From: a virus
Virus record (IMG/VR): IMGVR_UViG_3300030109_000415
Location: 1 to 25,353 of that record
Length of the DNA: 25,353 nucleotides
Reading direction: 5' to 3' (one strand)
The translations under genes and the position numbers were made by a program. Each line of letters opens with the position of its first letter. The stretch's first letter is position 1. Below, piece by piece: positions 2,528-24,409 of this stretch. Below the pieces are notes generated by a model. The model had not been told where the DNA came from. It saw only the letters and a program-made list of their open reading frames with translations, and did no database searches.

Positions 2528-3796
2528 ATGGGAGTATTTGATGCACTTCGTAATATCTTTACGAATACAGAGAAAAGGACTGGTAGTTATATTGACCCAA
2601 ACACTTTTCTTCCATCTAGCGGAAGCGGAATAAATATTACTCAAGAATCTGCAGTCACTTTTACAGCTGTATGGGCAGCGATAAGGATGTTATCCGAATC
2701 TGTTGCTCAACTCCCTATACAAATAATTGAAAGGCTAGAAAACGGAGACAAAATACAAAGGTCAAATCATATGTTATACGATATGATTCATACAAGACCG
2801 AATGAGTATATGACGCAATTTAATTTCATTCAAAAATGTATGTATGATTTATGCGTTGCAGGAAACTCTTATGTATTTATAAAAAGGAATGGAGCTGGAA
2901 GACCAATTGAATTAATACCTTTAGATGTAAACAAAATAGAAGTTAGAGAATTTGAAGAGACTTATTATTACTACAATCAAGATACAAATGAAATGCTGGA
3001 TTACTATGATATGCTTCATTTCAAAATAGTGAGTGCTGACGGAATGCTTGGACAGAGTCCTATTGATGTTTGTGCAAATTCAATTTCGTGGGGTTTAGGA
3101 TTAGAAAGATACGGAAATTCTTATTTTTCTAACGGGGCAAAAGTATCTGGAGTTTTACAAACAGACAGAGCATTATCTACAGAAGCAATTGAAAGGTTAA
3201 GAAATTCTTTTGACCAAAATTATTCAAAAATAGGAGATGCAAACAAAACCTTAATTTTAGAAGAGGGATTAAAATTTAACACAATAAGCCTATCAAATGA
3301 AGCTAGTCAATTTCTACTTTCTAGACAATTTTCTATTGAAGAAATTGCTAGAATATTTAATATACCTCCACATCTACTTCGTGATTTAAGTAAGTCAAGT
3401 TTTAACAATATACAGGAGCAGTCAAGAGAATTTGTTCAGTATACTTTAATGCCTTACTTAACAATGTTTGAAGCAGAAATGACAGGTAAGTTATTTAAGA
3501 AAAGTGAGAAGAAAAAATTAAAAATAGAATTTAATACTAACGCCTTATTACGAGGCAATCCAAAGGAAAGAGCAGATTATTACAGAACAATGTTGAATAT
3601 TGGAGCAATGACTATTAACGAGGTTAGACAAAAAGAAAATCTTAATGTTGTTGAAAATGGAGACGATTTATTTATGCAATTAAATATGGCTACGGTGGAT
3701 AATATAGTAGCAGGAGGCACATTAAATAAATTTGATGAAGAAGAAATTGTAGTAAAAGATGAGGATGAAAAAACAGACGAAAATGCCGATTCCTAA
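2528..3796 (+). CDS. Portal protein, HK97 family
   Basis: This 422-residue protein forms the dodecameric ring at the unique capsid vertex through which DNA enters and leaves. The N-terminal stretch with AVTFTAVWAAIRMLSESVAQLP is the hallmark start of phage_portal family proteins. It is followed by a segment reading IPLDVNKIEV, a GMLGQSPID element and, near residues 275-290, IARIFNIPPHLLRDLS, which is also family-typical. Length is normal. The C-terminus is acidic (EEEIVVKDEDEKTDENADS). The next gene starts 14 nt before its stop. Position between terminase and protease is canonical. Confidence 0.94.
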   Translation: MGVFDALRNIFTNTEKRTGSYIDPNTFLPSSGSGINITQESAVTFTAVWAAIRMLSESVAQLPIQIIERLENGDKIQRSNHMLYDMIHTRPNEYMTQFNFIQKCMYDLCVAGNSYVFIKRNGAGRPIELIPLDVNKIEVREFEETYYYYNQDTNEMLDYYDMLHFKIVSADGMLGQSPIDVCANSISWGLGLERYGNSYFSNGAKVSGVLQTDRALSTEAIERLRNSFDQNYSKIGDANKTLILEEGLKFNTISLSNEASQFLLSRQFSIEEIARIFNIPPHLLRDLSKSSFNNIQEQSREFVQYTLMPYLTMFEAEMTGKLFKKSEKKKLKIEFNTNALLRGNPKERADYYRTMLNIGAMTINEVRQKENLNVVENGDDLFMQLNMATVDNIVAGGTLNKFDEEEIVVKDEDEKTDENADS

Positions 3797-4958
3797 ACCA
3801 CAAATAAATGAGAGTGAAAGTGAATTTATGGATAGGTGTATGTCTGATGAAACAATGAAATCAGAATATGACGATAAACAAAGATTTGCAATTTGTAAAA
3901 CAAAATTAGAAAATAATAGCATTATGAAAAAAGACGAAAAAAGGCATGTAAAAGAAATAATTGAGGATGAAGAAACAATCACAATTGTATATAACAAAAA
4001 TGAAGAATTTGAAGGTATCAAACTTAAAGACTCCGATATTCCAGACGAGGGAGACGAAGAGACAATTGGTGAGGATACTGAAGAGGCTGATTCTCACTAC
4101 GATGAAGAAGACGAAGTGGTGGAAGAGGAAGAAGAAGTGGCTGATGAAGAAATGGAAGAAGATGAGGATGAGGATGATGTAGAAGAAGATGAAGAAGAGG
4201 AAGAAGATAGGGATGAGCATGAAGAAGATGAGTTAGAAGACGAAGAGGAAGAGGCTGACGAAGAGATGGAGGAAGACGAGGAAGAAGAAGATGAAGAAGA
4301 AGATGAGGACGAGGAAGAAGATGAAGATGAAGAAAAGAAAAAAAGAAGTGTTTGGGACTTGAAAGATGATACAGAAAAAAGATTCTTTTCAGTTGAAACA
4401 AGAGTAACTAAAAAAGGTAAAAGAAACATCGTAGAGGGTCACGCAGCTGTTTATAATGAGTTGAGTGAGGATTTAGGTGGATTCAGAGAAATGATTAAGC
4501 CTGGAGCATTTGACGATGTATTAGGAAATGATGTAAGAGCATTTTTTAACCACGACCCTAATTTTTTACTTGCCAGAACTTCAAGTGGTACGCTTAAACT
4601 ATCAACAGACAAAAAAGGATTAAAATATTCTTTTGATGTACCAGATACAACAGCCGGTAGAGATTTATTAGTTTCTATGAAGCGAGGAGATATAACACAA
4701 AGCTCTTTTGCCTTTAGAGTAGAAAGCGATTCTTGGGATGAAAGAGATGGAAGAGATATAAGAACAATTGAAAAAGTGGCTAGGTTATTTGATGTAAGTC
4801 CAGTTTCAATTCCTGCTTATCCAGATGCAAATGATTTAGCAATTGCAAAAAGAAGCAGAATGATTCACAAAGATAAAACAAAAATGAAAAGCGAAAATGA
4901 TTATGAGTATAGAACGAGTTTACTTGGATTAAAAATTAATATAATTAAAAGAAAATAA
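3783..4958 (+). CDS. Prohead maturation protease (HK97 type) with an N-terminal cysteine motif and a long acidic insert
   Basis: Residues 195-350 form an HK97-type serine protease. They include GHAAVYNELSEDLGGFRE, a probable catalytic His257 in FFNHDP and Ser307/Ser308 in QSSFAF. It cleaves the capsid delta domain during head maturation. Two parts precede this domain. Residues 1-45 begin MPIPKP and carry RCMSDETMKSEY...RFAIC, a motif seen at the N-terminus of some phage maturation proteins. Residues 108-184 are almost entirely Glu and Asp and contain a duplicated ADEEMEEDE unit. The start at 3783 gives the familiar MPIPKP beginning. An ATG at 3759 would add eight residues. The gene overlaps the portal gene by 14 nt. 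The acidic part may act as a scaffold, which is inference. Confidence 0.88.
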   Translation: MPIPKPQINESESEFMDRCMSDETMKSEYDDKQRFAICKTKLENNSIMKKDEKRHVKEIIEDEETITIVYNKNEEFEGIKLKDSDIPDEGDEETIGEDTEEADSHYDEEDEVVEEEEEVADEEMEEDEDEDDVEEDEEEEEDRDEHEEDELEDEEEEADEEMEEDEEEEDEEEDEDEEEDEDEEKKKRSVWDLKDDTEKRFFSVETRVTKKGKRNIVEGHAAVYNELSEDLGGFREMIKPGAFDDVLGNDVRAFFNHDPNFLLARTSSGTLKLSTDKKGLKYSFDVPDTTAGRDLLVSMKRGDITQSSFAFRVESDSWDERDGRDIRTIEKVARLFDVSPVSIPAYPDANDLAIAKRSRMIHKDKTKMKSENDYEYRTSLLGLKINIIKRK

Positions 4959-17044: not shown

Positions 17045-17251
17045 ATGAAAAATTGGTTTCAAGCATTATTTGTAAAACAAATATTACAATCAAAGAAATT
17101 TTGGTACGCAATATCATCTGTAATTGTTCCAGCTTTAATGAGCAGTTTAGGTGTAGATGAGCAAACGGCTACTAATCTCTTTATAGCATTATTATCATTA
17201 GCAGGATTTCAAGGTCTTGCAGATTTCGGAAAACACGCAAAGAAAAAATAG
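17045..17251 (+). CDS. Second small membrane protein of the lysis region (holin-like)
   Basis: The 68-residue protein has a basic start (MKNWFQALFVKQILQSKKF), hydrophobic helices at about residues 20-35 and 44-59, and a basic end (KHAKKK). A short acidic turn (GVDEQT) joins the helices. Two helices with both ends basic is a class II-type holin layout. It follows the endolysin by 15 nt, and its stop overlaps the GTG of the phosphoesterase by one base. It could be the main holin, with the upstream single-helix protein as antiholin, or the reverse. The assignment is by topology and context only. Confidence 0.6.
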   Translation: MKNWFQALFVKQILQSKKFWYAISSVIVPALMSSLGVDEQTATNLFIALLSLAGFQGLADFGKHAKKK

Positions 17252-18036
17252 TGAAGCAATTCAGACCACGATTGTCTGAATATGAGAATCGTTTAATTAA
17301 TGACTTTCGTAATTCTAAAAATGTGGGTATCATTGGAGACACACATCTCCCATATTGCATAAGAGAAACTAAAGAACATCTTTCTTATTTGCAATTTTGT
17401 TATGAAACCTTTAATAGATTTGGTTGCTCTGAAATAGTGCATATAGGAGACGAGTGCGACAATGCAGCATTATCATATCATCAAGGAGAAGTTGAAATGC
17501 CAAACATAATAAGTGAGGCAGAGCAGGCTCAAGAACAATTAGAAGAGTGGTTTAAGACCTTTCCAGATGTAAAGGTTTGCGTGGGTAATCACTCGGCTCT
17601 TCCCTTTAGACAGGCGACCACAGCAGGTATACCAAAAAGGTTTATGAAAACTTATGAGGAGATTTGGAAAGCTCCAAAGGGTTGGAAATGGGAATTACAA
17701 TGGGAAATAGATGGGGTATTATACGAACATGGCACAGGAACTTCTGGGCAGAATGGAGCTAGAAACAGAGCAATTGCAAATAGGCAATCCACAGTAATAG
17801 GGCATTCACATTCTTTCGGGGGGGTTTCATATATGGCTAGTCGTAACGATATTATTTACGGGCTTAATGTTGGCTGTGGAATATCAGTCAATCACATGGC
17901 TTTTGCCTACGGGAAGCATTTTCCAAAGAAGCCAACTATTGGATGTGGTATTGTTTTAGATAAGGGCAAAACTGGATTATTTATTCCAATGGATTTAGGC
18001 TCAAAAGTTATTAGAAAAAATTTGTTAATAAAATAA
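17251..18036 (+). CDS. Calcineurin-like metallophosphoesterase
   Basis: The 261-residue protein has the ordered metal-binding motifs of the family: GDTH (Asp30, His32), GDECDN (Asp67), GNH (Asn113, His114) and GHSH (184-187), with a further His160 in between. It starts at GTG (17251), sharing one base with the previous stop, so it belongs to the late transcript. The family hydrolyses phosphomono- or diesters of nucleotides, nucleic acids or proteins. Specificity cannot be read here. Phage versions may act on host nucleotide signals, DNA ends or nucleotides during lysis, which is inference. A G7 run (17818-17824) encodes FGGV right after the last motif. No signal peptide is visible. Confidence 0.85.
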   Translation: MKQFRPRLSEYENRLINDFRNSKNVGIIGDTHLPYCIRETKEHLSYLQFCYETFNRFGCSEIVHIGDECDNAALSYHQGEVEMPNIISEAEQAQEQLEEWFKTFPDVKVCVGNHSALPFRQATTAGIPKRFMKTYEEIWKAPKGWKWELQWEIDGVLYEHGTGTSGQNGARNRAIANRQSTVIGHSHSFGGVSYMASRNDIIYGLNVGCGISVNHMAFAYGKHFPKKPTIGCGIVLDKGKTGLFIPMDLGSKVIRKNLLIK

Positions 18037-18270: not shown

Positions 18271-18311
18271 GTTAATAACTCTTGGTTATCAACTAACAAA
18301 GCGTATATTTG
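18271..18311 (+). promoter_or_regulatory. Promoter with overlapping dyad operator before the amidoligase gene
   Basis: TTG (18282-18284) and TATATTTG (18304-18311), 19 nt apart, match the Bacteroidota TTG...TAnnTTTG promoter. GTTAATAAC (18271-18279) and GTTATCAAC (18285-18293) form an inverted repeat, matching 8 of 9 positions, around the 5-nt spacer TCTTG. That spacer contains the -33 TTG, so a dimeric repressor or activator bound here would cover it. No regulator gene lies in the window. Upstream in the same gap are two ACCGAAA direct repeats (18182-18199), a TTTCTA/TAGAAA dyad (18200-18219) and AGTAAATTACT (18249-18259). Confidence 0.65.
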
Positions 18312-18348
18312 AGCATCAATAATGATAAAAACAAAAACAAAAACTAAA

Positions 18349-19422
18349 ATGAAAACAATTATCAAATCAAACAGAACATTCGGAGTAGAGATAGAATTCG
18401 CGTCTACAGTTAATCAAACAGAAATAGCATCAAGATTAAAGAGAAAATTTAGAAGCATAGAATTTGAAGGAGAATCTTGGAATACATCAACAAGAAATTA
18501 TTTTAAAATCATTACAGACTCTTCAATTGATTCAGCAGGGGGGTATGGATTAGAATTAGTGACTCCTATATTAAAGGGAAAAAAAGGATTAAATGATTTA
18601 AGAAAAGTATTAGATGTATTAGATTCTTTTGAAGAAGTATCTGTAAATAAGTCTTGTGGAATCCATGTTCATGTAGATGTGAATGATTCTGATATTAATG
18701 GTATTGGAAGAATTTTAAAATTATATTCTAAACAATCTAAATTTATTGACAGAATATTAGCTCCATCAAGAAGAAGAGAGGGAGGAAAGGGAAAGAGATG
18801 GGCAATGAATTTAGAATATGCTTCTCGCTCAAATGATTCAAGAGAATTATTTAATAAAATTGATTCTACAATTGATAGCACAGCAGACCATTATACAATG
18901 AATGATAAAGTTACTTGTATTAAAGATTTATTTAGAAATAATCCGTCTGGAGTTAATGCGAGATATTGTGCAGTTAATTTAGATGCATACAGAAAATATG
19001 GTACGGTTGAATTTAGACAACATCACGCAAGTACTGATTCTGAAAAAATTTCTAATTGGGTAGTATTTGTTACTAATCTTGTTGACAGAGCTGTTAAAGC
19101 AAAGAAAGTATTTGTTGGAGAGACTACATTTGAAAGAACTTTTAAAGCCTCTAAACAGCTTTTAAAATTTGCTTCGGATAGAGCAGTAGGTTTTGGTTTT
19201 GAAGAGCATAGACTTGAGGAGAATATCGTTAGAGTGGATGGTAAAGATTTAGCAGAAGGAGTTGAATTAGTAAAATTATCAAATGGAGCTTTTCAATTAT
19301 TTGCTAATGGAAATTTATTAGATAATACAATGAGTCATTTTAAGCAATTTGCAGAGCAATTAGGAATTGATTTTACAGGAATGAATACGAGAAGATTAGG
19401 ACAGGCTTTATTGTCTGCCTAG
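18349..19422 (+). CDS. Phage amidoligase (Amidoligase_2 family, glutamine-synthetase-like fold)
   Basis: The 357-residue protein shows the family's ordered motifs. They are FGVEIEF (11-17), DSS (57-59), GLELVTPIL (67-75), CGIHVHVD (103-110), RYCAVNL (205-211) and GTVEFRQH (218-225), with Trp237. The acidic and His residues correspond to the metal/ATP-binding set of the glutamine-synthetase fold. The family is predicted to join carboxylates to amines with ATP, making amide or isopeptide bonds. I prefer the start at 18349: one at 18322 would leave almost no leader after the promoter box at 18304-18311. It is the first gene of its operon. A stand-alone glutamine amidotransferase follows, and a cyclotransferase lies 5 kb downstream. 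The substrate is unknown. Confidence 0.85.
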   Translation: MKTIIKSNRTFGVEIEFASTVNQTEIASRLKRKFRSIEFEGESWNTSTRNYFKIITDSSIDSAGGYGLELVTPILKGKKGLNDLRKVLDVLDSFEEVSVNKSCGIHVHVDVNDSDINGIGRILKLYSKQSKFIDRILAPSRRREGGKGKRWAMNLEYASRSNDSRELFNKIDSTIDSTADHYTMNDKVTCIKDLFRNNPSGVNARYCAVNLDAYRKYGTVEFRQHHASTDSEKISNWVVFVTNLVDRAVKAKKVFVGETTFERTFKASKQLLKFASDRAVGFGFEEHRLEENIVRVDGKDLAEGVELVKLSNGAFQLFANGNLLDNTMSHFKQFAEQLGIDFTGMNTRRLGQALLSA

Positions 19423-19453
19423 TCTTATTTAATAATAAACAAAAATTGAAATT

Positions 19454-19597
19454 ATGAAATTAAGAAAATTAACAAAAGATGATGAGTTTCTAAAATTAGA
19501 TTCTCTCATTAATGACCCTCAAGTAAACAAAGCTATTGAGGACAGAGCAAAAGAATTAGTAAAAGAATATAATAATAACAAAAACAAAAATAAATAA
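19454..19597 (+). CDS. Small charged protein between amidoligase and amidotransferase
   Basis: A 47-residue frame begins MKLRKLTKDDEFLKLDSLIND and ends in an Asn/Lys-rich tail. The acidic/basic helix DPQVNKAIEDRAKELVKEYN is clearly amphipathic. An A-rich leader precedes the ATG at 19454, and the stop lies 2 nt before the amidotransferase ATG, so coupling is likely. Nothing identifies a family. A small protein in this position could be an acceptor or regulatory subunit of the amidoligase pair, which is speculation. The gene itself is likely real from spacing. Confidence 0.5.
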   Translation: MKLRKLTKDDEFLKLDSLINDPQVNKAIEDRAKELVKEYNNNKNKNK

Positions 19598-19599
19598 TT

Positions 19600-20469
19600 A
19601 TGTGTGGATTAATAGGTTATACAAGTAATGGGGTAAAAGCAGACCCCTATATATTAAGAAAATTAATGAAAGCAAATGATAGTCGTGGAGGTCATTCTAC
19701 GGGCTTTTATGATGGTAGTGGATTCAATAAAGTAATAGGTAAGAGCAATTCTTTAGCAATGCCAAAGAGATGTGATATGTTTATTGGTCATACAAGATAT
19801 GCTACTCATGGAAAAAAGACGGTAGAAAATCAACATCCTTTTAAATATGGAAATGTTATCGGTGCTCATAATGGAGTCGTTCATAATTATAGAGAAGTAG
19901 GAGAGCAATTTGGATTAAAAAAGACTGCTGTAGATTCTCAAATGATTTTTAAGGTAATGAATAAAGAGAATGGAGAATTAAATATATTAGGTAAATTCTC
20001 TGGAGCTTTAGCAACTCTCTTTACTATAGGAGATGGGAGATTATATACATACAGAAAGACGAATCCTTTATGGGTAGGTAGAGATAATAAAGGGGGGGTG
20101 TATTTTTCTTCTTTGCGTGATATAATGCTTGAGTGTAATTTGAATAATATATTTCAGCTGAAAGAGGGTAGAGTTTATGTGTGGGAAGATGGAGTTGTAA
20201 AATATAAGATTGATATTGAACACGACCCTATTGAATCAAAATACTCAAAAGTAAAAAAGCAATGGTGGGAATATGGATTATCAAATGAAAGAGAATCATT
20301 CTGGACTCCAAAGAAATCTGCTTATAGTGGAATCACAGACCAATACGATAAGCTGGATGAAATAGATATTACAGACTATGAATTAAGTGATAATCAAGAC
20401 CAGCTCCAATTGTTTGATAATAAATGTGATTGTCAAGGAGACAATAATTTTTGCTTTTGTATATCATAA
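19600..20469 (+). CDS. Stand-alone class II glutamine amidotransferase
   Basis: The 289-residue Ntn-hydrolase has the nucleophile Cys2 directly after the start Met. It also has RGGHSTGFY (29-37), GHTRYATHG (63-71, with the glutamine-carboxylate Arg66), AHNGVVHN (89-96, with the oxyanion Asn91-Gly92) and Asp112 in DSQ. All class II residues are present, so it should hydrolyse glutamine and release ammonia. There is no synthetase, sugar isomerase or QueC domain attached. It presumably works with the amidoligase just upstream or modifies glutamine itself. The last 17 residues (DNKCDCQGD...FCFCIS) are Cys-rich with two CxC pairs, an unusual tail. A G7 run lies at 20092-20098. Confidence 0.88.
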   Translation: MCGLIGYTSNGVKADPYILRKLMKANDSRGGHSTGFYDGSGFNKVIGKSNSLAMPKRCDMFIGHTRYATHGKKTVENQHPFKYGNVIGAHNGVVHNYREVGEQFGLKKTAVDSQMIFKVMNKENGELNILGKFSGALATLFTIGDGRLYTYRKTNPLWVGRDNKGGVYFSSLRDIMLECNLNNIFQLKEGRVYVWEDGVVKYKIDIEHDPIESKYSKVKKQWWEYGLSNERESFWTPKKSAYSGITDQYDKLDEIDITDYELSDNQDQLQLFDNKCDCQGDNNFCFCIS

Positions 20470-20750
20470 TGAAATTAAAAACGACATATAAATGGGAGTG
20501 CGTTTATAAAATGGACGGGGAAATGTTTGTAGCTGATTCTTATTCTAATTTAGTTAAACAAATGAGAGAAATAGTTTACTCACAGCCTCGTTCAAATTCA
20601 GAGCATAGGAGAGACACTAAAAAAAGATTTTATAAATGGGATAGAACTATAATTGATGACTCAAGTGATAAAACCTTTGTCCTTGATTTAATTAATTGTG
20701 GGTATCTTAAGGTATTGTCCTGTAATAGAAAAGCTCTTAAAACGCTTTAA
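20469..20750 (+). CDS. Unknown small protein downstream of the amidotransferase
   Basis: A 93-residue protein begins MKLKTTYKWECVYKMDGEMF. The start at 20469 shares one base with the amidotransferase stop (TAATG), a coupled arrangement. An ATG at 20451 would add six residues but overlaps further. The sequence is basic and mixed, with YSNLVKQMREIVYSQPR suggesting a short helix; no motif is recognised. It is probably translated with the amidotransferase and may serve the same pathway. That link rests only on adjacency. Confidence 0.62.
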   Translation: MKLKTTYKWECVYKMDGEMFVADSYSNLVKQMREIVYSQPRSNSEHRRDTKKRFYKWDRTIIDDSSDKTFVLDLINCGYLKVLSCNRKALKTL

Positions 20751-20780
20751 AATGAGTAATAACATTAAAATAATAATAAA

Positions 20781-21074
20781 ATGAAACTAGACAAAAACGG
20801 AAATTTTGAAGTCCAAGAAATTAAAACAACAATAAAAGAATATAACGCAAATGATTTACCTGCATATTTTAAATGGGATTGTGGTAGTCATCCGTGGTAT
20901 TTTAGAGTTAGAAATGTGGAGGGGTGTATTGTAGCTGACCAATTAAAAAAGACTTACGAGGGTATTGAGTATCAATTCTCAACAATAACATCAGCATTCA
21001 GTACTACAAATAAACCAATCGGAGAAGATGAGTGGAGAAATGTGATGCATAATTTTATAAAACAAATGAGATGA
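20781..21074 (+). CDS. Unknown small protein
   Basis: The 97-residue protein begins MKLDKNGNFEVQEIKTT and contains KWDCGSHPWYFRVRNVEGC, where strand-like aromatic segments alternate with Cys residues. It ends DEWRNVMHNFIKQMR. Its ending overlaps the next ORF start by 4 nt (ATGA), so the two are coupled. The preceding ATG-poor gap (20751-20780) is A-rich and serves as leader. I recognise no family. The protein could be a small beta-rich binding domain. No function is assigned. Confidence 0.62.
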   Translation: MKLDKNGNFEVQEIKTTIKEYNANDLPAYFKWDCGSHPWYFRVRNVEGCIVADQLKKTYEGIEYQFSTITSAFSTTNKPIGEDEWRNVMHNFIKQMR

Positions 21075-21367
21075 ATTACGACCAATGGAAATTAAGTAAT
21101 CCAATTGATGATGGTGTTGGTTATGATATGGTTTCAAGATGTTGTGGAGCTGAAATTGTAGACTCTGAAAAGAGTGATTGTTGTGATGCTAAAATGGATT
21201 GCGATAGGATGTTGTGTTTTAAATGTAAAGACCATTGTGATACATACCAAGTCTGCTCTGATTGTGGAGATGAAGCAGAAGAGATTGAAGATTATGAATA
21301 TGAAGAATTACAGAAAGAATCGTGGGCTGAAATGAAAGCCGATGGAGAAAGAGACGAGAGGGGATAG
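21071..21367 (+). CDS. Cysteine-rich protein, probably zinc-binding
   Basis: The 98-residue protein has 11 Cys within residues 24-65: CC (24-25), CC (37-38), Cys44, CFKC (49-52), Cys56 and CSDC (62-65). The CFKC...CSDC arrangement makes a four-Cys zinc ribbon, and the paired CC sites may form a second. The N-terminal MVSRCCGAE motif recurs in many phage hypothetical proteins. The C-terminus is acidic (DEAEEIEDYEYEEL). It overlaps the preceding gene by 4 nt. Its 3' end carries one arm of a terminator-like stem. A role in nucleic acid or protein binding is likely but unproven. Confidence 0.7.
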   Translation: MNYDQWKLSNPIDDGVGYDMVSRCCGAEIVDSEKSDCCDAKMDCDRMLCFKCKDHCDTYQVCSDCGDEAEEIEDYEYEELQKESWAEMKADGERDERG

Positions 21368-21424
21368 TACCTACGGAGGCAACAAACATTGACGAATGTT
21401 ATAATATTAATCTCCTCTCTTTTT
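21356..21424 (+). terminator. Terminator-like stem with an internally folded loop
   Basis: GAGAGGGGA (21356-21364) pairs over 9 bp, with one G-T wobble, with TCTCCTCTC (21411-21419). TTTTT follows. The 46-nt loop contains a perfect AACATT-GACG-AATGTT hairpin (21385-21400) and a small CCT-ACGG-AGG stem. The 5' arm overlaps the last codons of the Cys-rich gene. It ends the amidoligase-to-Cys-rich unit before the replication genes, but the branched loop is unusual for a plain terminator. The following 21425-21483 holds an A-rich leader and no ORF. Confidence 0.6.
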
Positions 21425-21483
21425 ATAAAGGGTAAGCCGAAAACCTTAAATAGAGTAGGCATTAAATTTCTAAAAAATAAATT

Positions 21484-22080
21484 ATGAAAGGAATTGAAAT
21501 TAGTGCAGAAAGCACAACAGATACTAGAGAAATAGTATCAGCAGGAACTCACATAGCAATATGTTATTCAGCTATTCACATAGGGTGGGTAGAATGGGAA
21601 TATCAAGGAGAATCCAAAAGGAGTAATAAAATAAGATTAACTTTTGAATTACCAAATGAAATGAGGGATTTCGGTGGAGAGATGAAACCAATGGTTATAT
21701 CAAAAGAATATACTTTATCACTTCACGAAAAAAGTAATCTACGAAAAGATTTAGAATCTTGGAGGGGGGTGGCTTTTAGTGGTAGCCCTAATTTTGACAT
21801 AACAGATATGTTAGGAAAACCTTGTATGTTATCTATCATTCACAAGACAGGAAAGAATGGAAATATGTATTCTACAATACAGGGGGTATCATCTTTAGTA
21901 AGTGGAATGGAAGCTCCAGAGCAGTTTAATCCAAATTTTATTTTTAACTATCACGATAATTTTAATGAAGAGTGGTTAGATGAACAACCAATGTGGGTGC
22001 AAGAGCAAATCAAGAATACAGAAGACTATAAGTCTAAAAAGAATTATCAAAAGTATTCTAATCATACGAGAGTAGAGTAA
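21484..22080 (+). CDS. NGO0469-like phage replication-associated protein (probable OB-fold ssDNA-binding)
   Basis: The 198-residue protein begins MKGIEISAESTTDTREIVSAG. It contains VISKEYTLSLHEKSNLRKDLESWRG and LLGKPCML-like DMLGKPCMLSIIHK, a signature of phage proteins labelled NGO0469-family replication initiation proteins. The alternating strands and the KEYTLSLHEKS...LRKDLESWRG core suggest an OB-like fold that could bind single-stranded DNA. The gene opens a block of four coupled replication-type genes, each overlapping the next by one to four bases. The C-terminus is polar. A G6 run (21764-21769) encodes WRGV. Family and context agree; biochemical activity is inferred. Confidence 0.72.
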   Translation: MKGIEISAESTTDTREIVSAGTHIAICYSAIHIGWVEWEYQGESKRSNKIRLTFELPNEMRDFGGEMKPMVISKEYTLSLHEKSNLRKDLESWRGVAFSGSPNFDITDMLGKPCMLSIIHKTGKNGNMYSTIQGVSSLVSGMEAPEQFNPNFIFNYHDNFNEEWLDEQPMWVQEQIKNTEDYKSKKNYQKYSNHTRVE

Positions 22081-22469
22081 TGGATGAAATAGTATTGCGA
22101 GCCAAATTAATTCTGTCACATCTTTTTTCTTTTGATACCGTTCATTTTGAAAGGCATACAACAAGGACAAGAGATATTATGGAGGGAAGAAGATTTCTAA
22201 TGTATTTTTTACGAGAAGATATTGGAATGACTTTTTTTCAAATTAAAAAGTATATACCAGCTCTAACTAATCACGCTACAATAATTCATCATTGTAGAAA
22301 GATGAGGGAGCTACTGGATGTTGAAAAATCTTTAAAGAGAAGATATAATTTATTCAAGAGCCAAATGCTAGACGGAGAGAGGTATGTAATTGAGACAGAG
22401 ATTATAAAGAAAACCGAACAGAGAAAAAAAATTAATAACGAACTTTATAAATTAAAAAAATTATTATGA
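22080..22469 (+). CDS. DnaA domain IV-like DNA-binding protein
   Basis: The 129-residue protein has MYFLREDIGMTFFQIKKYIPALTNHATIIHHCRKM (about residues 41-75). This mirrors the DnaA C-terminal helix-turn-helix and signature loop (usually RDHTTVLHA...KI), with NHATIIHHC in the same place. Only this domain is present. There is no AAA+ ATPase part, so it likely recognises DNA, possibly the phage origin, without loading helicase itself. Its start overlaps the previous stop by one base (TAATG), and it is coupled to the next gene by 4 nt. The C-terminal half is a Lys/Glu-rich helix. Confident for domain, moderate for role. Confidence 0.78.
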   Translation: MDEIVLRAKLILSHLFSFDTVHFERHTTRTRDIMEGRRFLMYFLREDIGMTFFQIKKYIPALTNHATIIHHCRKMRELLDVEKSLKRRYNLFKSQMLDGERYVIETEIIKKTEQRKKINNELYKLKKLL

Positions 22470-22735
22470 TTACAATTGAAGGGCAAAAATGTAAGACCCA
22501 AACCGATGCAGTTTTAGTACATCTAAAATCTGGAAAACAATTAACACAAGAAGATGCTTACGAGCTAGTGGGAACACAAAGACTTGGAGCTATTATATTC
22601 AACTTACGAAAGATGGGGTATGATATTTATTCTATTAATGTAAAAGGATTTAATAGATTTGGAAATTCTACTAACTTTGTAAAGTATCATTTGATGAGTA
22701 CAAAAGAACAATGTGAATATATTGAAAGAAAATGA
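22466..22735 (+). CDS. Helix-turn-helix protein (HTH_39 type)
   Basis: The 89-residue protein begins MITIEGQKCKTQTDAVLVHLKSGKQLTQEDAYELVGTQRLGAIIFNLRKMGYDI-like sequence. This closely follows the HTH_39 pattern (Q..aVl.hL..G..lT..dA.el.G..RL.a.I..LR..G..I). It should bind DNA as a small winged helix. It sits between the DnaA-like protein and the winged-helix replication protein, overlapping both by 4 nt. That suggests a role in replication or local regulation. It could be a regulator of this operon; the dyad at 18271 is one possible target, which is speculation. Confidence 0.75.
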   Translation: MITIEGQKCKTQTDAVLVHLKSGKQLTQEDAYELVGTQRLGAIIFNLRKMGYDIYSINVKGFNRFGNSTNFVKYHLMSTKEQCEYIERK

Positions 22736-23208
22736 GGGCTAATTATTATGCAATAATTCCTGCAGGGGTAAGGTATTCGGATATTAAACCGAATGCCAAA
22801 CTCTTGTACGGAGAGCTTACAGCATTAGCTTATAAAGAGGGTTATTGTTTTGCTAGTAATAATTATTTTGCAGAATTATATAATGTATCTAAAAATACAA
22901 TTTCATTATGGATAAAAGAATTACTTACAGCTGGATTCATAGAATGTGAAATGATTTACAAGGGTAAGCAGATAATAGAACGGAGATTATATATACTTCC
23001 AATTATTGAGACTATCACTAAAAATGATGAGGGGGGTGTCATTAAAAAGGAGGAGGATAATAATATTAATTCTAATACTATAAATAAAATAACATATCGT
23101 AAATTAAAATTTGAGGAGATTGTTTTTCAATGCACTGATATTAGCAAAGATGTTTTAAAAGAATTTTGTGATTATTGGACAGAGCAGAATTTGAAAGGAA
23201 CAAAATAA
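22732..23208 (+). CDS. Winged-helix replication protein (3' end probably truncated)
   Basis: The 158-residue protein begins MRANYYAIIPAGVRYSDIKPNAKLLYGEL. It shows ASNNYFAELYNVSKNTISLWIKELLTAGFIE, a winged helix of the HTH_36 type found in phage replication initiators. Residues 100-120 are a Glu/Asn-rich linker. The C-terminal part reaches FCDYWTEQNLKGTK and stops. Related proteins usually continue after this FCDYWTE...GTK block, and matching sequence does appear after the stop in another frame (23204-23317). The gene therefore seems shortened by a frameshift or deletion. It overlaps the HTH_39 gene by 4 nt and closes the replication block. Confidence 0.72.
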   Translation: MRANYYAIIPAGVRYSDIKPNAKLLYGELTALAYKEGYCFASNNYFAELYNVSKNTISLWIKELLTAGFIECEMIYKGKQIIERRLYILPIIETITKNDEGGVIKKEEDNNINSNTINKITYRKLKFEEIVFQCTDISKDVLKEFCDYWTEQNLKGTK

Positions 23209-23317
23209 TTCAAATTGGAATAAAGCTACACCAAAAAGTAAGATACATCAATCAATTAATGCACATCAAAAAGCTCGTGAAATGATTAAAAAAATGAATA
23301 GTAATGGTAATATGTAA
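23204..23317 (+). pseudogene. Out-of-frame remnant of the replication protein's C-terminus
   Basis: Read one base out of frame from the upstream stop, this stretch encodes NNSNWNKATPKSK followed by IHQSINAHQKAREMIKKMN, ending at TAA 23315-23317. It has the amino acid make-up of the normal end of such proteins and no start codon of its own near the beginning. The shift could be one base lost or gained near the A-run at 23202-23205, or a larger internal deletion, since the usual MRFE...ARW block is also missing. A programmed shift is possible but no slip signal is obvious. Confidence 0.5.
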
Positions 23318-23331
23318 AATGCTCGGAGACT

Positions 23332-23409
23332 CGTTTTAAAGCGATTTAACAGATTTTCTCTATTCTCTAATAGGATACTATGAATTAAAGGAGAACTTCG
23401 TTTTACTAG
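23332..23409 (+). repeat. Intergenic repeat copy B
   Basis: This is the counterpart of 6281-6358: 23 of 26 bases identical at the start (around AAGCGATTTAA), with TACTATG and CTAG at the same offsets and TTCGTT within 3 nt. The unconserved middle here holds a CTATT-CTCT-AATAG hairpin (23360-23373). It fills the gap between the damaged replication gene and the next gene, ending 12 nt before its ATG. Confidence 0.6.
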
Positions 23410-23421
23410 ATATAAGACAAA

Positions 23422-23802
23422 ATGAAAATTAAAGAAATAGAAATAGAAGAATTAAGGACAAAATGCGTAGATTTGCTGTCAAGAACATTCTTACAATTAA
23501 GACAAAATCCAACTGAAGATGATATTGTAATGCTTGCAGTTATTTTAGCTGAAGACTTAAAAGAAGATTTTGAGAAATTAGAATTTCGTGATATTGAGCA
23601 GGCGTTTAGATTAGGCATAAGAAACACAGACGATTTTGTAGTTGGTGTTAAAACTTGGTACAGATGGATAAAAAGACACCGGCAGGTAATTTGGGATAAT
23701 GAAGACAAAGAGCCAGAAAGAGTAGACAAAAGATTGAGGTATCGTTCTAAAAAAGGAACAGGATTAAAAAAATTAAGTAATCAATTAAAATATTTAAAAT
23801 GA
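23422..23802 (+). CDS. Unknown phage protein of the replication region
   Basis: The 126-residue protein is helical and charged. It has VMLAVILAEDLKEDFEKLEFRDIEQAFRLGIRN followed by VVGVKTWYRWIKRHRQVIW. This general outline, a short helical bundle with an 'F..L...ei..AF..G' block and a Trp-rich end, recurs in small proteins of Bacteroidota phage replication regions. I know no established function. A helicase-loading or primosomal accessory role would fit the context. It starts 12 nt after the repeat copy B, and its stop overlaps the next small gene by 4 nt. Confidence 0.68.
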   Translation: MKIKEIEIEELRTKCVDLLSRTFLQLRQNPTEDDIVMLAVILAEDLKEDFEKLEFRDIEQAFRLGIRNTDDFVVGVKTWYRWIKRHRQVIWDNEDKEPERVDKRLRYRSKKGTGLKKLSNQLKYLK

Positions 23803-23954
23803 AACAGCCAGACCCACAGCTCCACCAACAAATTAGTTTTATGAAATCAACTATAAGAATAGCTGGATACTTTTGTTTACTATTTTCAGTAGGGTGGGGA
23901 GTAGCTTTTTTAGTGATAAGTGAATTTCTGGGGATAATGGAAGAAACGGTATAG
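23799..23954 (+). CDS. Small single-pass membrane protein
   Basis: A 51-residue frame starts at 23799, overlapping the previous stop by 4 nt (ATGA). It reads MKQPDPQLHQQISFMKST, then a hydrophobic segment at about residues 22-45 (AGYFCLLFSVGWGVAFLVI), then an acidic end, IMEETV. It is too short to classify. Coupled starts and a clean membrane helix make it a likely real gene. A superinfection-exclusion or membrane-docking role is possible but unsupported. Confidence 0.58.
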   Translation: MKQPDPQLHQQISFMKSTIRIAGYFCLLFSVGWGVAFLVISEFLGIMEETV

Positions 23955-23958
23955 GTTT

Positions 23959-24036
23959 GAGGGGGTTAGTAATTTAATTAAATTAACAGAGCGGTTATAT
24001 TTTGTGACTATTACAATTCCTCCTCATTCCTTTTTT
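23959..24036 (+). terminator. Terminator-like long stem with palindromic loop
   Basis: GAGGGGG (23959-23965) pairs with CCTCCTC (24019-24025), with one wobble. GTAAT (23969-23973) pairs with ATTAC (24010-24014) further in, and ATTCCTTTTTT follows. The loop contains a perfect 16-nt palindrome, TAATTTAATTAAATTA (23970-23985). Both its shape and its edges (GGGG, then TAGTA) resemble the element at 21356. It separates the small membrane gene from the cyclotransferase gene. Confidence 0.5.
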
Positions 24037-24049
24037 AAAAATAAAAACT

Positions 24050-24409
24050 ATGAATAAGATATTTGTATACGGAACATTAAAAAGTGGTTATCATAATGAC
24101 GGCTTTCTAGCAAAAGCTAGATTTTTAGGAGAAGCAATGACAATGAAAGATTTTACTTTATTAACTAATCATTATACAGGATTACCATATGTAATAAAAG
24201 AAGCTAGTTATCCAATTGAAGGAGAGTTATATGAAGTTGATGAATGGACTTTTATGACAATAGATAATTTAGAAGGGCATCCACATTTTTATTGTAGAGA
24301 ATTAGTAGATTTAGAAGTAAACAATAAAAAAGAAAGGGGGTGGCTGTATTTTTTAATGCAAGACTACGATAATAGGGATGTAAGAAAAAATCCAACAGGT
24401 AGATGGTAA
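24050..24409 (+). CDS. Gamma-glutamylcyclotransferase-like protein (AIG2/GGCT fold)
   Basis: The 119-residue protein has the glycine-loop motif VYGTLKSG (6-13), a GLPYVI strand and GELYEVDEWTF...DNLEGHPHFYCR. In the last of these, Glu75 aligns with the catalytic acid of the family. The fold converts gamma-glutamyl amines or dipeptides into 5-oxoproline and the free amine. Length is typical for a minimal GGCT. It is preceded by an A-rich leader, and its stop overlaps the next start. With the amidoligase and amidotransferase 4-6 kb upstream on the same strand, it may reverse or trim the amide product. The physical link is looser than for those two. Confidence 0.85.
   Translation: MNKIFVYGTLKSGYHNDGFLAKARFLGEAMTMKDFTLLTNHYTGLPYVIKEASYPIEGELYEVDEWTFMTIDNLEGHPHFYCRELVDLEVNNKKERGWLYFLMQDYDNRDVRKNPTGRW

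Follow-up and report, generated by a model that had tools for sequence, protein, structure and literature searches.

We identified, in the window (the whole 25,353-base stretch analysed here, virus record IMGVR_UViG_3300030109_000415), a group of phage genes that may constitute a module for writing and erasing an amide bond. The writer would be an ATP-dependent ligase (amidoligase) forming an amide, probably gamma-glutamyl, and it would act with dedicated partners, at least one of them an eraser; we give this reading a probability of roughly 0.55. The record is incomplete, and encodes small and large terminase, portal, major head protein, tape measure and an endolysin-like peptidase. The genes in question are as follows:

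18349 to 19422, plus strand: Amidoligase_2, a carboxylate-amine ligase of the GS/GCS type (Pfam PF12224, AF2 model); the open reading frame (ORF) possibly starts at 18322.
19454 to 19597, plus strand: charged ORF of 47 residues, a putative optional accessory with same-slot homologues in loci L016 and L021 only.
19600 to 20469, plus strand: class II glutamine amidotransferase (Ntn type, Cys2) with a C-terminal CxC...CxC motif (GATase_6 and GlmS profile matches).
20469 to 20750, plus strand: the small protein S93 (sequence, recurrence beside phage amidoligases, AF2 model).
24050 to 24409, plus strand: gamma-glutamyl(amine) cyclotransferase of the AIG2/GGACT type (PF06094, alignment of E75).

A preliminary description, made from the sequence alone, had reported three intact enzymes encoded on one strand, and both points stood. 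The amidoligase contains FGVEIEF, CGIHVHVD and GTVEFRQH, the amidotransferase Cys2, GHTRYATHG and AHNG, and the cyclotransferase YGTL and Glu75, with Pfam matches to Amidoligase_2 (PF12224, E 4.6e-34, 118.8 bits against a cut-off of 22), GATase_6 (E 4.4e-13, 49.8 bits against 27) and GGACT (PF06094, E 7.3e-22, 78.6 bits against 22.8), respectively. Loss of active-site residues in homologues had been named in advance as evidence against the grouping; instead, amidoligase residues E23, E25, H115, H117, R214, N219, E230 and R232 are invariant across 10 diverse homologues (26–63% identity), amidotransferase residues C2, R66, N91, G92 and D112 (the N-terminal cysteine and glutamine site) across seven, and cyclotransferase residues Y7, G8, L10 and E75 across eight.

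The AF2 model of the amidoligase (pLDDT 85.8, pTM 0.79) is nearest to YbdK (Foldseek E 6e-6) and to glutamine synthetases and GmaS, and aligns with glutamine synthetase over 224 residues (Z 12.1, root mean square deviation 5.1), placing the protein in a predicted glutamine synthetase/GCS-type fold. YbdK, the glutamine synthetases and GmaS are enzymes that use glutamate carboxylates. The amidotransferase matches the GlmS glutaminase domain by profile (E 1.7e-24) and EgtC only weakly (E 4.7e-6, far below the cut-off). The protein has no synthase domain, and the amidoligase is a possible partner in its place. Its C-terminal CxC...CxC motif (window positions 20380-20466, CDCQGDNNFCFC) is kept in relatives. 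In the cyclotransferase, E75 falls in the alignment at the residue occupied by Glu in human GGACT (3jub) and by Gln in the variant chain (3jud). The enzyme belongs to the gamma-glutamylamine type rather than to ChaC.

A recurrent association of these families across phages, as the preliminary description had proposed, was borne out by a survey of gene neighbourhoods. Each scan covered the best 80 loci, with viral amidoligases numbering at least 535 overall, and a simple k-mer rule served to remove redundancy. Profiles were iterated on viral loci, where the IMG/VR contigs are fragments, and validated on genome loci; narrower S93 and cyclotransferase alignments were used for back-translated scans because the broad ones were too divergent. 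Of the non-redundant viral loci, 49 extend at least 1.5 kb downstream, and in 48 of these S93, a cyclotransferase or an amidotransferase lies between -400 and +2500 bp of the amidoligase stop. The partner sets were cyclotransferase only (19), cyclotransferase with S93 (14), S93 only (6), amidotransferase with S93 (5), all three (3), amidotransferase only (1) and none (1), and the cyclotransferase of the window lineage falls beyond this interval. Outside the interval, 755 kb of viral loci yielded no S93 match, no amidotransferase match and five cyclotransferase matches. A partner was also present at 51 of 62 genome loci, which are mostly from Bacteroidota and are prophages where tested; the usual sets there were S93 alone (25/62) and a short amidotransferase alone (19/62). 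From the other direction, in a scan centred on the cyclotransferase, 72 of 80 loci had an amidoligase or an amidotransferase nearby, and 63 of 80 had an amidoligase when the divergent amidoligases described below were included. Chance co-location of the gene set was rejected by the neighbourhood counts in close relatives, viral and genome loci, and cyclotransferase-centred and fusion loci.

In the slot after the amidoligase, S93, a short amidotransferase and two distinct types of cyclotransferase alternate. On a 121-row amidoligase tree, a quick tree with many weak forks, the presence labels changed 13 times for S93, 11 for the amidotransferase and 13 for the cyclotransferase, whereas shuffling gave means of 40, 28 and 39, respectively; since there are fewer changes than after shuffling, yet 11–13 for each partner, the sets appear to be inherited in blocks and reassembled repeatedly. 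A clade of 15 amidotransferase-paired rows (SH-aLRT 100) lies inside an S93-bearing group (enclosing branch SH-aLRT 93), and this nesting suggests that one partner replaced the other. Five clostridial and other loci (L162, L163, L168, L171 and L172) form a separate clade, in which a ChaC-like cyclotransferase comes after a distant amidoligase.

The conserved small partner is S93, which the preliminary description had missed, whereas the 47-residue ORF that it mentioned is optional. S93 is 93 residues long, and its ATG overlaps the stop codon of the amidotransferase gene (TAATG); the ORF can be read longer, from 20451 to 20750, with the ATG at 20469 the better start. It is kept in all four close relatives of the window (L010-L013). 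A five-sequence S93 profile run against about 10,000 ORFs gave matches, up to E 0.03, only where an amidoligase lies just upstream. With profiles trained on viral loci, S93 was found beside amidoligases in 27 of 69 non-redundant genome loci and nowhere else in about 1 Mb. All 15 loci recovered with S93 queries likewise have an amidoligase just upstream, although the narrowness of the queries and the overlap of these loci with the earlier sets make this weak evidence on whether S93 occurs alone.

An alignment of 30 S93 members has one invariant Phe and few other shared positions; so little conservation speaks against catalysis by S93 and against a fixed acceptor residue in it. The AF2 model (pLDDT 90.4) has the order beta-beta-alpha-alpha-alpha-beta; one row from a Porphyromonas phage record was left out of the alignment used for folding. 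Nothing in the PDB resembled it significantly (best Foldseek E 1.4; best Z 4.3, to AcrIIA15, a value that we do not interpret), and its relatives are unnamed viral proteins. S93 has no family in Pfam or PHROGs. A non-catalytic role, as a partner docking on the amidoligase or regulating it, is probable. We considered S93 as the missing C-terminal tail of long amidoligases, and rejected this as hhalign gave no homology between the two sequences (probability 0.2). Long tails and S93 nevertheless complement each other in occurrence, with a median tail of 123 residues in ligases that lack S93 against 39.5; the window lineage is an exception, having both a long tail and S93.

In 37 viral loci the amidotransferase and cyclotransferase are encoded on one ORF, a fusion confirmed by Pfam in one of these loci and in phage C75C1. 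Within phages, the amidotransferase domain was seen fused to a cyclotransferase and in no case to a ligase. As none of 40 fusion-phage records had a PF12224 match above the cut-off, these phages could be taken as free of the ligase, but this was overturned: the adjacent, unannotated upstream ORF is a divergent amidoligase. Compared with the standard family it gives hhalign probabilities of 97.5-98.4 (E ~7e-12), and its motifs TIGFEIEK, CGGHITI and EFR occur in the same order as FGVEIEF, CGIHVHV and EFRQH. Including it, 31 of the 37 fusion loci carry an amidoligase (26 divergent and 5 standard), and in each of the six with neither form the sequence upstream is shorter than 2 kb. Phage MW202828, whose genome is complete, encodes next to its fusion a 574-residue 'hypothetical' protein that is likewise a divergent amidoligase. 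The family has no Pfam or PHROGs match and, together with S93, is one of two families added here that both databases miss. The fusion proteins of other phages end, like the window amidotransferase, in a cysteine-rich stretch, which is zinc-ribbon-like. Examples of divergent amidoligases next to fusion genes are:

L206, 5732-6658
L196, 3868-4794
L217, 5458-6330
L238, 3678-4634
L261, 4659-5654
L265, 3218-4939

We infer the direction of each reaction as follows. The amidoligase would use ATP to activate a carboxylate, likeliest the gamma-carboxyl of glutamate or of a glutamyl peptide, which would then be joined to an amine. The cyclotransferase would reverse gamma-glutamyl-amine bonds, releasing 5-oxoproline, and the amidotransferase, which may bind gamma-glutamyl groups through its N-terminal cysteine, would work on the same chemistry as the ligase. 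For the amidotransferase there are two options. It had been described as an ammonia source, and feeding ammonia to the ligase survives as only one of them: hydrolysis or transfer of gamma-glutamyl groups is slightly favoured because the domain is fused to the cyclotransferase and alternates with other partners. Proteins of the class II amidotransferase fold also remove gamma-glutamyl groups, as EgtC does. In ergothioneine (EgtA/EgtC) and butirosin (BtrJ/BtrG) biosynthesis, a ligase adds a gamma-glutamyl group that is later removed by EgtC, of the GAT-II type, or BtrG, of the AIG2 type; given the weak EgtC match, both serve only as analogies for the window set. S93 would dock on or regulate the ligase, and the likeliest substrates are a host cell-wall peptide or a small molecule of host or phage.

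Several points weigh against this module. The glutamate substrate is read from the fold and the partners only, and no biochemical test of any member was found in the available text of the literature on such gene sets. In the window, S93 and the cyclotransferase gene are 3.3 kb apart, making co-transcription only putative. Many loci pair the ligase with nothing but S93, or with nothing but a short amidotransferase; therefore neither erasure by a cyclotransferase nor an ammonia source can be universal. More tentatively, S93 may represent a new class of dedicated amidoligase partner, an adaptor or regulator, with interchangeable writer-plus-partner systems controlling one reversible amide modification. 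The partners would then be S93, short amidotransferases, two kinds of cyclotransferase and the amidotransferase-cyclotransferase fusions, and the divergent amidoligases, a large family, would belong to the same systems.

The association of the three enzymes is not new. In the portions of the sources available, the same set appears as a predicted phage "peptidoglycan modification cassette", in which, by prediction only, the ligases are writers and the cyclotransferase and amidotransferase are degraders; its carriers include PSA-HP1, RIO-1, phiEco32 and LUZ24/PaP3/tf-like phages (PMC5498523, PMC11945000, PMC3890496). PMC10580990 traces the prediction to Iyer et al. 2009, and the set is also recorded in Arthrobacter phages (PMC5513430), OM43 phages (PMC10580990) and Phage-ZRK32 (PMC10945688). 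Like the window, the cassette has an amidoligase, a class II amidotransferase and a gamma-glutamyl cyclotransferase among replication-side genes. Published cassettes also include an ATP-grasp enzyme and another, COOH-NH2 ligase, neither of them detected in the incomplete record of the window. PF14398 and PF08443 (ATP-grasp) had no match in the window and eight related records, also incomplete; controls were positive, though the annotated ATP-grasp protein of MW202615 also fell under the cut-off. PF14395 (second COOH-NH2 ligase) had no match in the window in a search without a positive control. The make-and-erase logic of the preliminary description is thus retained, whereas its claim of a complete set is not, given the additional ligases of related cassettes; within the limits of the record, the window set may be a reduced version. 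The window has S93, which is not described in the available text of the cassette accounts. The Arthrobacter phages Salgado, Laroye and Ottawa also combine the three enzymes, there as three neighbouring genes (PMC5513430), but in the order GGCT-amidoligase-GAT and without S93, and the window amidoligase is ~30% identical to theirs. No account of S93, of the common fusion or of the divergent ligase family turned up in the literature searched, which is no proof of novelty. The amidoligase-S93 pair and the pair of amidoligase and fused amidotransferase-cyclotransferase are minimal units for testing, much simpler than the cassettes of LUZ24-like phages, which comprise five genes.

As an alternative reading, host cell-wall amidation, serving superinfection exclusion or lysis control, is possible but rather unlikely: the amidotransferase would supply ammonia, the amidoligase would amidate or cross-link stem-peptide carboxylates, and the cyclotransferase would trim gamma-glutamyl (D-Glu) linkages. 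Peptidoglycan stems do contain gamma-linked glutamate. This is the published proposal for PSA-HP1, RIO-1, phiEco32 and LUZ24-like phages, although only as a prediction in the text available (PMC5498523, PMC11945000). The extra ATP-grasp and COOH-NH2 ligases of that proposal were not found in the window, and the gene set spans phages of Arthrobacter, Bacillus and probably Bacteroidota, as well as marine contigs, across hosts whose wall chemistries differ.

We consider a role in auxiliary small-molecule metabolism, glutathione-like or of amino-nitrogen, unlikely. The predicted likeness of the amidoligase to YbdK and the resemblance of the other-type cyclotransferases to glutathione-degrading ones are consistent with it, and such a role has been proposed, in the part of the account available, for Phage-ZRK32 (PMC10945688). 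The window, however, has no cysteine or glycine ligation partner, its cyclotransferase is not of the ChaC type, and numerous loci encode nothing of the set beyond the ligase and S93. An arrangement like an enzymatic toxin-antitoxin pair, in which a harmful or controlling modification by the amidoligase is restrained by S93, a short amidotransferase or a cyclotransferase through binding or removal, is improbable. Prophage two-gene pairs with interchangeable partners, the amidotransferase clade nested in the S93-paired group and the near lack of invariant residues in S93, as expected of a binding partner, would fit; yet the amidoligase is the first gene of the pair, all partners are sometimes present together (the window is one such case), no PADLOC defence model was matched, and toxicity is putative. 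DNA base hypermodification, in which the amidoligase would couple a modified base to an amine or an amino acid, is very improbable. The genes do sit on the replication side, close to one for a replication initiation protein, but no base-modification genes were recognised among the proteins scanned in this incomplete record.

Returning to the write-and-erase module in the window, the order and spacing of the amidoligase, amidotransferase and cyclotransferase genes are the same in the four related IMG/VR loci, L010, L011, L012 and L013, the first two of which are near-identical to each other. The 47-residue ORF between the first two genes is real, in that homologues occupy the same position in L016 (68%, E 7e-11) and L021 (54%, E 1e-7). 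It is not a conserved member, with no homologue in L010, L012 or L013, and is best described from these comparisons as an optional gene.

A promoter-like site precedes the amidoligase gene:

18282 to 18311, plus strand: Bacteroidota-type promoter-like site, TTG-N19-TATATTTG, a pattern match just 5' of the amidoligase.

This pattern has four matches in the window against 0.74 expected, and the -7 element TATATTTG also lies 5' of the amidoligase in L010, L012 and L013. Because the -7 element ends at 18311, the amidoligase start at 18349 is likelier than that at 18322. Shine-Dalgarno-like 4-mers precede only one of 32 window genes (15% at random positions), and their scarcity, together with the promoter-like element, suggests a Bacteroidota-type host; the terminase comparison (~46% to Firmicutes phages) was uninformative on this point.

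Directly 5' of this site lies a metallophosphoesterase gene (17251-18036) that is 76-92% identical in the four relatives; in the available text on OM43 phages, a metallophosphoesterase is also listed with the amidoligase and amidotransferase (PMC10580990). A short protein encoded at 22080-22469, adjoining the replication initiation protein gene, has a helix-turn-helix-like domain resembling the DnaA C-terminus (E 2.2e-5, below the cut-off), and in the fusion-type phage MW202828 a gene with the annotation dnaA also lies a few kb away from the module. Between the portal and major head protein genes, a 399-residue ORF (3759-4958) contains a very long, low-complexity stretch rich in Glu and Asp at about codons 90-190.

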